Source: Lentzea sp. NBRC 102530 (GTDB taxonomy: Bacteria; Actinomycetota; Actinomycetes; Mycobacteriales; Pseudonocardiaceae). From it: a stretch of DNA of 64,000 nt. The stretch spans positions 1 to 64,000 of the forward strand of contig NZ_BSTF01000023.1 of NCBI RefSeq assembly GCF_030269365.1, read 5' to 3'. Positions 36,128 through 51,679 of this stretch are shown piece by piece. A program made the translations under genes and the position numbers. The notes under the pieces were generated by a model. The model was not told the origin of the DNA and made no database searches. It saw only the letters and a program-made list of their open reading frames with translations. The stretch's first letter is position 1. Every line of letters starts with the position of its first letter.

Positions 36128-36258
36128 GGTTCTTGCTGGGGTGCGGCTTGGGTGCGGCTTGGGTGGGCTGGTGCCGGTTCCAGCGGGGTTGGTCGCGTTT
36201 TGTTGGTCGGGCTGCGGTTGCGAGGGTGCTTGCGCGGGTCGGTTCGACCATGTGGGGT

Positions 36259-36381
36259 GCGATTGGGGCTTGACCTTGAGCCTCTGGCGGGATGCGTATC
36301 GGCCTCAAAAGCCGGGGTGAAAGGCGCCCCGGCCGGTCTGACATGGTGGCATCCCGCCCCTCAAGGTCAAGCCCCAATCGC
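36259..36381. repeat. 123-nt palindromic element, copy A
   Basis: The outer arms 36259-36280 and 36360-36381 are perfect 22-base reverse complements. An inner stem 36286-36295/36349-36358 is a perfect 10 bp. A central hairpin pairs GCCGGGG (36311-36317) with CCCCGGC (36327-36333) around TGAAAGGCG. It lies 131 bases after the GT2 stop, between convergent genes. The second copy (51360-51482) is exactly as long and differs by compensatory changes. Confidence 0.85.
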
Positions 36382-36487
36382 CCAGAGCGGTGGAACCGGC
36401 TGGGTGATGAGGATCGGCCCGTTCGGGCTCGCTCCGCTTCGCCACGCCAGGACCCGTAGGTGGCTGGCTTACGTCTGTGGCTGTCCG

Positions 36488-36592
36488 GTTGGCACCGCGC
36501 GCCAGGCTTGCGTGCGTGGTCGCCCTGCATCGGCGATCGCAGTTGGCACCGCGCCAGGCTTGGGCGGTCGTCGGCCTGCATAGGCGGCTGCG
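36488..36592. repeat. Imperfect direct tandem repeat, about 52 nt
   Basis: 36488-36541 and 36542-36592 both begin GTTGGCACCGCGC and share CAGGCTTG and CCTGCAT segments, in the same orientation. With the preceding palindromic element, this is what the 547-base gap between the GT2 gene and the response regulator holds. No gene was recognised in the gap. Confidence 0.6.
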
Positions 36593-36674
36593 GTTGGGCG
36601 GGAGTGTCAGACCCCGCCGGTACGTTGGGTCGCGGGGGAGCCAAAACCCGAGGTGACCCTTGCGGGAGCGTGCG

Positions 36675-51121: not shown

Positions 51122-51319
51122 TGCGGGCGACTATGCCACTCATGGTGGGTCGTGGGGTCGTGAGCTTCGCCATCGGGATCGAAACAGTTATCGGTCTAGG
51201 AAACGGCCAGATCCGGGGTTTCGCCTGTTGAACCCGTGTGGGGGAACGCTTGTGTTGGGCTGATCGGGGTGGCTCTGGTCCGTCACCTCTGGGAGTGGGC
51301 GGGTTTGGTGCAGAGACTT

Positions 51320-51358
51320 TGACGAGCTTTGGTTTCGTCATCGCCGCTTCGCGACGAT
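51320..51358. repeat. 39-nt intergenic repeat, copy 2
   Basis: Matches 21932-21970 at 35 of 39 positions, same orientation, and directly abuts the 123-nt palindromic element at 51360. The preceding bases (GTGCAGA) also match upstream of copy 1. Confidence 0.75.
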
Positions 51359-51359
51359 A

Positions 51360-51482
51360 GGGATCGGGGCTTGACTTCGGGGCCCTTGCGAGGCGCTGGT
51401 CGGACCGGAAAAGCCGGGCTGAAAAGCGCCCGGCCGATCCGCGAGGGGTAGCACCTCGTACCCGAAGTCAAGCCCCAATCCC
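51360..51482. repeat. 123-nt palindromic element, copy B
   Basis: Outer arms 51360-51381 and 51461-51482 pair at 21 of 22 positions. An inner stem 51388-51397/51450-51459 pairs with two G-T wobbles. A central hairpin pairs GCCGGGC (51413-51419) with GCCCGGC (51428-51434) around TGAAAAGC. Identical in length to 36259-36381. The rest of the 558-base gap to dhaM (51483-51679) holds short imperfect repeats such as GCCTCGCCTGCGGCAT (51551 and 51624) and no recognised gene. Confidence 0.85.
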
Positions 51483-51679
51483 TTCGGGTGCATGGCTGGG
51501 TTGAGTGCGTACGTCACCACACCGGCTCGACGGTCCAGCCAAGACTGACGCCTCGCCTGCGGCATTGCCGTTGGGTCTTGGCGGGCTCGGCTGCGCCATC
51601 GCGATGCTTTACGACTCGGTCGGCCTCGCCTGCGGCATCGTTGCGCTCGAGCCACTGGGCGCCTCGCCCTGTGCGGCGT

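Follow-up and report, generated by a model that had tools for sequence, protein, structure and literature searches.

The two 123-nt palindromes present in the analysed stretch of Lentzea sp. NBRC 102530 DNA (the window, 64,000 nucleotides; its genome is called G000 below) are solo members of a palindrome family that is linked to DUF222-HNH genes. They seem to be pieces of a previously undescribed type of mobile DNA and not a regulatory RNA. Judged from sequence comparison, palindromes of this family probably form the end, or a cis-acting module, of DUF222-HNH mobile elements of the 13E12/REP13E12 type. The link to the nuclease gene was invisible to the first-pass annotation because the copies in the window genome stand alone: no DUF222-HNH gene was found beside or inside either window copy, and G000 carries two DUF222 matches, neither of them near any of its palindromes. 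The following features were assigned in the window.

36259..36381, + strand: palindrome copy 1, type B, solo, arms GCGATTGGGGCTTGACCTTGAG
51360..51482, + strand: palindrome copy 2, type A, solo, arms GGGATCGGGGCTTGACTTCGGG
36150..36597, + strand: approximate type-B repeat unit around copy 1, from matches in other Lentzea genomes
36128..36674, no strand assigned: lineage-specific insertion of 547 bp containing copy 1, from comparison with other Lentzea genomes
36166..36184, + strand: small outer motif GGCTGGTGCCGGTTCCAGC, recognised by eye, with a further occurrence close to the outer edge of full element L030
51340..51358, + strand: small outer hairpin ATCGCCGCTTCGCGACGAT adjoining copy 2, recognised by eye
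51281..51658, + strand: longest segment spanning copy 2 with a repeat elsewhere in the genome (86% identity)

Fold, family and sites of the window palindromes

The first-pass annotation had described two palindromes of exactly 123 nt with 22-bp outer arms, an inner 10-bp stem and a central hairpin. Both palindromes are real. Copy 1 is near-perfect, with perfect 22-bp arms and the 10-bp inner stem, while in copy 2 the arms carry one mismatch (96% complementary over 23 nt) and the inner stem is interrupted. The arm differences between the copies are compensated at outer positions 2, 17, 19 and 21, as had been claimed, but position 6 (T-A versus C.A), which was overlooked, is not compensated. The compensated change in the central stem (GCCGGGG/CCCCGGC versus GCCGGGC/GCCCGGC) had been read correctly. 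The motif GGGGCTTGAC occurs four times in the window, every time inside the arms of the two copies, against an expectation of 0.11. Folding z-scores of both copies on both strands ranged from -8.9 to -10.0 for RNA and from -7.6 to -9.0 for DNA, none of 200 shuffles reached the stability of either fold, and the plus and minus strands folded about equally well. No Rfam family reached its gathering score in the window and a tRNA search gave no match; for lack of an Rfam match the reading as a riboswitch or other known RNA family was rejected. A T-tract is absent 3' of both hairpins.

A search of G000 with a covariance model built from 21 copies revealed 38 distinct places (68 hits over both strands), six of which are cut at contig ends. 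These belong to two main types, A (including copy 2) and B (including copy 1). With a strict pattern, matches were found in 17 out of 24 Lentzea genomes, from 1 to 33 per positive genome, where counts of 1-3 may be due to chance because a reversed-pattern control gives 0-2. Most copies are 119-126 nt long. For the analysis of covariation 29 diverse copies were aligned, namely 28 of 31 non-redundant copies (L214:4667-4790, L189 and L188 being left out) and the second window copy. Standard pairs were found in 94.9% of the 864 cells (30 pairs, 29 copies), with about 44 cells unpaired. Double changes were seen in 12 of the 30 pairs (76 cells), and one-sided wobble cells on the plus strand numbered three, a scarcity that supports conservation at the DNA level. 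The covariation score was 0.222 compared to 0.090 for shuffled alignments and 0.028-0.056 for slid alignments; 0 of 500 shuffles reached 0.222, a count that is not a p-value because the copies are related. Twenty further pair types in the same alignment did not rise above the shuffles. The double changes and the shuffles bear out the earlier claim of a structure conserved beyond sequence. Many further covarying copies, which the first-pass annotation had named as support for its claim, do exist, and they uphold its suggestion of a cruciform or REP/MITE-like repeat family.

Arm mismatches were counted in 105 copies, after eight of 113 distinct copies had been dropped for poor arms. There were 94 A.C/C.A cells versus 8 G.T/T.G cells; 70 of the 94 are a C.A mismatch at outer position 19, found in 70 of the 105 copies, and since they fall at one position they probably go back to one inherited change.

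The insertion that contains copy 1 lies between two convergent ORFs, one glycosyltransferase-like (+) and one resembling a LuxR response regulator (-), and extends between their stop codons; both labels go by sequence appearance. From the match end of one flanking gene to that of the other there are 553 nt in G000 but 2-35 nt in 13 of the 23 other Lentzea genomes; two genomes have about 1 kb of other sequence at this site, and in eight the left gene is absent from the stretch examined. Two other Lentzea genomes, G016 and G004, together contain four matches to the type-B unit, aligned over query positions 551-998; the edges of the unit differ among copies, and copies within G000 align over shorter stretches. 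The surroundings of copy 2 match G000:C23:78180-78552 (query 982-1359). At copy 2, 18 orthologous gaps were examined and no palindrome was found in any of them; the sequence between the orthologous genes is too variable there for the insertion edges to be placed.

Pairing with DUF222-HNH genes in Lentzea

In other Lentzea species many copies form inverted pairs, 1.5-2.2 kb apart in 12 pairs examined. The gene between them encodes a DUF222-HNH protein of about 400 aa ("13E12"/REP13E12 type), and in three cases tested by Pfam the ORF was confirmed as DUF222 plus HNH (PF02720, PF01844). In L. nigeriaca the pairs have GGCGCTTGAC or GGTGCTTGAC arms, some of the differences being compensated on the opposite arm. 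In the full Lentzea elements inspected, the palindromes are preceded by a sequence nearly identical to ATCGCCGCTTCGCGACGAT (by eye).

The association was counted in L. aerocolonigenes (G001), L. alba (G003), L. nigeriaca (G015) and G006. Within 1.5 kb of a DUF222 match lie 58 of the 69 palindromes (25/26, 18/19, 13/17 and 2/7, respectively), compared to a chance expectation of 0.4-0.8% in three of the four genomes. All 58 show the same arrangement, + to the left of the gene and - to its right, as judged by inspection. Conversely, a palindrome was found within 2.5 kb of 17/22, 11/16, 7/9 and 1/4 DUF222 matches, after merging of split matches in G001 (23 to 22) and G015 (10 to 9). With up to 23 matches per Lentzea genome, DUF222 itself is a dispersed multi-copy repeat. 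Seven of the 11 palindromes without a near DUF222 match are no more than 1.3 kb from the end of their contig (G001:C17, G003:C5, G006:C9, C11 and C12, G015:C21 and C31), so that the partner gene may be cut off; one more is 1.8 kb from its DUF222 match, and around three others (L440-L442) no HNH ORF was present in the stretch examined.

Starting from the gene, 59 Lentzea DUF222-HNH loci were drawn from the best 80 of 548 matches. An inverted repeat between the flanks was present at 37 of them, a few of these repeats being only 31-77 nt long; four others have a palindrome on one side, two are cut by contig ends and at 16 none was detected. For the full element L030, a contiguous empty site was found in L. 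indica (G012), where 4 nt stand in place of an insertion of 2.22 kb and no target-site duplication could be recognised. Since G009 and G020 carry an element at the same site, this insertion is not recent.

The model of the L027 DUF222-HNH protein predicted by AlphaFold had a pLDDT of 81.4 and a pTM of 0.41. Among the best 50 of 117 Foldseek matches none reached E<=0.001, the most plausible weak ones being HNH domains such as 4h9d, and no credible solved relative of the DUF222 part appeared. A PDB sequence search gave nothing at E<=1, and defence-system models matched none of three proteins. The CAPRI paper, considered as a lead on DUF222, proved a false one, as the excerpt of PMC10841881 concerns DUF2220. 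Of 24 Lentzea genomes, 11 have hits to the Y1 transposase (PF01797). No such hit was found in G000 or in palindrome-rich genomes like G008, G016, G017 and G019, and a RAYT link is thus unsupported for the palindromes of G000.

Other palindromes, other genera and DUF222 genes of the order

The same layout recurs with different palindromes. The DUF222-HNH genes of Lentzea sp. NBRC 105346 (52-56% identical) have an unrelated 62-nt palindrome; among five loci, three carry it inverted on both sides and a fourth has it on a single side. As in other Lentzea elements, a small hairpin precedes it (by eye). In Amycolatopsis a 65-nt palindrome, also preceded by a small hairpin, lies 5' of the gene in eight of 12 loci inspected by eye; of these eight, one is shortened, one comes from another strain and some are near-duplicates. 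The Amycolatopsis units end shortly 3' of the DUF222-HNH gene. At the Amycolatopsis loci L230-L246, DUF222-HNH copies show a near-fixed 3' edge and variable 5' truncation, some being without palindrome.

In G134, a genome of another genus of the same family, 28 copies out of 56 matches to the gene were examined, and 27 of them have a palindrome just upstream (one match being partial). It resembles the Lentzea kind (GGCTTGACCTGGGGCCCCTTGCG), with 68% identity to copy 2 versus 53% for shuffled sequence. Two DUF222 subfamilies share it: their proteins are 25% identical over 285 aa, and the palindromes have a median identity of 95%. The 90 nt after the palindrome are 55% identical between subfamilies versus 52% when shuffled, and 61-68% within each. 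In the 375-aa gene type, for which DUF222 was reached and the HNH match is weak, shared sequence stops at the stop codon with none visible beyond; in eight copies of the other subfamily BLAST matches end within about 35 nt of it. The left edges of the G134 units often come after a stop codon (by eye). When 12 G134 units were searched for duplications, nothing but scattered 7-9-mers turned up; at all the sites inspected (copy 1, L030 and the G134 units, not a systematic set) no target-site duplication was recognised. Many G134 palindromes (L398-L415) adjoin arrays of GGCTGGTTCCAGC-like small hairpin repeats, variable in number.

Solo palindromes are not restricted to the window genome. G017 has many of them and zero DUF222 hits. 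G019 has 23 solo places, where eight of nine copies inspected are nearly identical, and its DUF222-HNH genes inspected (five of 17 hits) carry other palindromes. In the genus g69, a strict pattern matched a related palindrome, with arms such as GTGCGGCCGGCTTGACTTGGGG, 21 times in G162 and 70 times in G194; one locus per genome (L394, L395) was inspected and showed no HNH ORF. Near many of the G019 solo palindromes (L249-L276), arrays of TTGGCTGCCGGT..GTGCGTGGTCGCC-like small hairpin repeats of variable number were seen. The small outer hairpin there has the variants GGCGCCTTCGGCGCC and ACGCGCTTCGCGCGT, which are paired with different downstream variants, and this mixture suggests recombination between copies.

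DUF222 hits were obtained in 100 of 121 sampled genomes of the order, often with several genes per genome. An isolated palindrome of score at least 14 was found at one of 30 order-wide loci, and one of score at least 13 at seven of 20 further regions; none of these 50 loci has a matched palindrome pair. A tolerant scan of the flanks revealed an upstream palindrome at 0 of 72 loci (the 50 above and 22 in three other genomes of the same family) and no palindrome at 16 Lentzea DUF222 loci. This absence at the 72 loci is weak evidence where interrupted palindromes are concerned, because of the known positives the scan recovers 14/14 in Lentzea but 12/20 and 1/8 in G134 and 1/12 in Amycolatopsis. 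That palindromic ends are general to all DUF222 genes is an unsupported idea, with 0/72 in a scan that is poor at interrupted palindromes.

Explanations and related systems

We infer from the arrangement of gene and palindromes that the nuclease drives mobility. The DUF222-HNH protein would recognise the palindrome folded into a hairpin or cruciform of DNA, and the bulge would make the palindrome asymmetric and hence directional. A direction given by the bulge could be likened to that of the imperfect REP palindromes of E. coli, which are processed by TnpA-REP according to an excerpt of PMC8266576. By nicking or cutting at the palindrome, the nuclease may drive the copying of the unit. The solo copies would then be non-autonomous derivatives spread in trans, as REPINs supposedly are by RAYT, and the window genome may since have lost its cognate nuclease. 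Conservation of the palindrome would come from DNA recognition or hairpin-templated correction, and not from an RNA product. Against this explanation speak the 0/72 upstream palindromes, in a weak scan, and the solo copies in genomes without a cognate nuclease. In a wider form, put forward here as a tentative proposal for which the odds are somewhat against, DUF222-HNH proteins would be the mobility nucleases of hairpin-ended elements, REPtron-like with HNH instead of HUH, whose large palindromes serve as recognition ends that can be exchanged between subfamilies and spread solo.

An independent REPIN/MITE-like miniature element moved by another transposase, with the DUF222-HNH genes as passengers or homing beside existing palindromes, is a rather unlikely explanation. 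It would account for the solo copies without a near cognate gene in G000, G017 and G019, for the g69 loci without HNH ORF in two genomes with 21 and 70 copies, and for arms that resemble 22-bp terminal inverted repeats. The two G134 subfamilies share the palindrome and not the downstream sequence, which also fits genes landing beside pre-existing palindromes. The uniform orientation around the gene (58/58) argues against such an element, as do the layout kept even with unrelated palindromes, the Lentzea repeated unit reaching beyond the palindrome and the lack of a PF01797 hit in G000 and the palindrome-rich genomes named above.

The structured non-coding RNA of the first-pass annotation, or a cis-regulatory RNA, is very improbable. 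The very stable fold and the covariation would suit it, and the C.A at outer position 19 would pair as U-G in an RNA transcribed from the minus strand, in line with the excess of A.C/C.A over G.T/T.G cells; most of that excess is, however, the single position. Both strands fold about equally, Rfam gave no match, and on the plus strand three one-sided wobble cells stand against 76 double changes, mostly Watson-Crick. The copies are dispersed, with copy 1 in a lineage-specific insertion, no palindrome in the 18 copy-2 gaps or at the other orthologous sites examined, and pairs around a DUF222-HNH gene elsewhere, so the RNA reading is left unsupported. Bidirectional transcription terminators or insulators maintained by selection at gene ends are the least probable of these explanations. 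GC-rich hairpins, the position of copy 1 between convergent genes and the G134 edges after stop codons would agree with them. The window hairpins are not followed by a T-tract, though, the paired layout would be left unexplained, and the neighbours of solo copies are convergent in five cases, tandem in seven and divergent in two (14 assignable of 28, by a rough GC-based gene finder).

The DUF222-HNH elements favoured here share features with several known systems. REP13E12 loci of mycobacteria, which we take to be the 13E12/DUF222-HNH repeats (in part following an excerpt of PMC10589994), have the same domains (PF02720 and HNH) as the genes between or beside the palindromes and are likewise multi-copy and dispersed; the annotation of one plasmid relative reads '13E12 repeat family protein'. 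According to an excerpt of a 2026 preprint, REP13E12 loci are among the main hotspots of gene conversion and have no defined biological function (PMC13061034). Flanking palindromes are a difference, being unmentioned in the excerpts of PMC10589994 and PMC13061034, and the 50 order-wide DUF222 loci gave no detected palindromes in the flank scans, which have limited sensitivity. No published account of palindromes flanking DUF222-HNH/13E12 genes was found in the open-access PMC literature.

Excerpts on REP/REPIN-RAYT systems ('REPtrons') describe intergenic palindromes, some bulged, many of them apart from the gene and presumed non-autonomous (PMC3116915, PMC8266576). The palindromes studied here are likewise intergenic, bulged and in many cases solo, with presumed non-autonomous copies and a nuclease or transposase gene nearby, and inverted palindromes stand beside the nuclease gene; this is a likeness in the way of working and not membership. 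REPs measure 20-40 nt in an excerpt of PMC3733652, in contrast to mostly 119-126 nt, or 62-66 nt, for the palindromes studied here. The nuclease is of the HNH and not the HUH type, the DUF222-HNH gene also occurs in multiple copies, and G000 has no Y1 hit. Elements of the IS200/IS605 kind also have hairpins near their ends, and the target-site duplication unseen here is a further likeness; they differ in that the ORF between the palindromes is DUF222-HNH and no Y1 transposase, and in that the ends of the Lentzea elements are inverted copies. Like MITEs, the window copies are short, non-coding, solo and lineage-specific with inverted-repeat ends, and unlike them they have a complex three-tier conserved core, with no target duplication recognised at the sites inspected. 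Should the wider proposal hold, some or all of the REP13E12/DUF222 family, long unexplained, would gain a function. The covarying DNA hairpin tied to the DUF222 gene provides a testable substrate, and with it a parallel, HNH-based answer to how intergenic palindromes may spread.

A separate observation was made at six contig ends of G000 (L433-L438; contigs C2, C15, C11 at both ends, C10 and C23). All six share one junction, at which ..CACAGCTTGACAATCCATAGGAGCAT, resembling the end of an insertion sequence, is joined to the same base of the type-A palindrome, as if a multi-copy element inserted at a fixed position within it. IS elements that target REPs are known.
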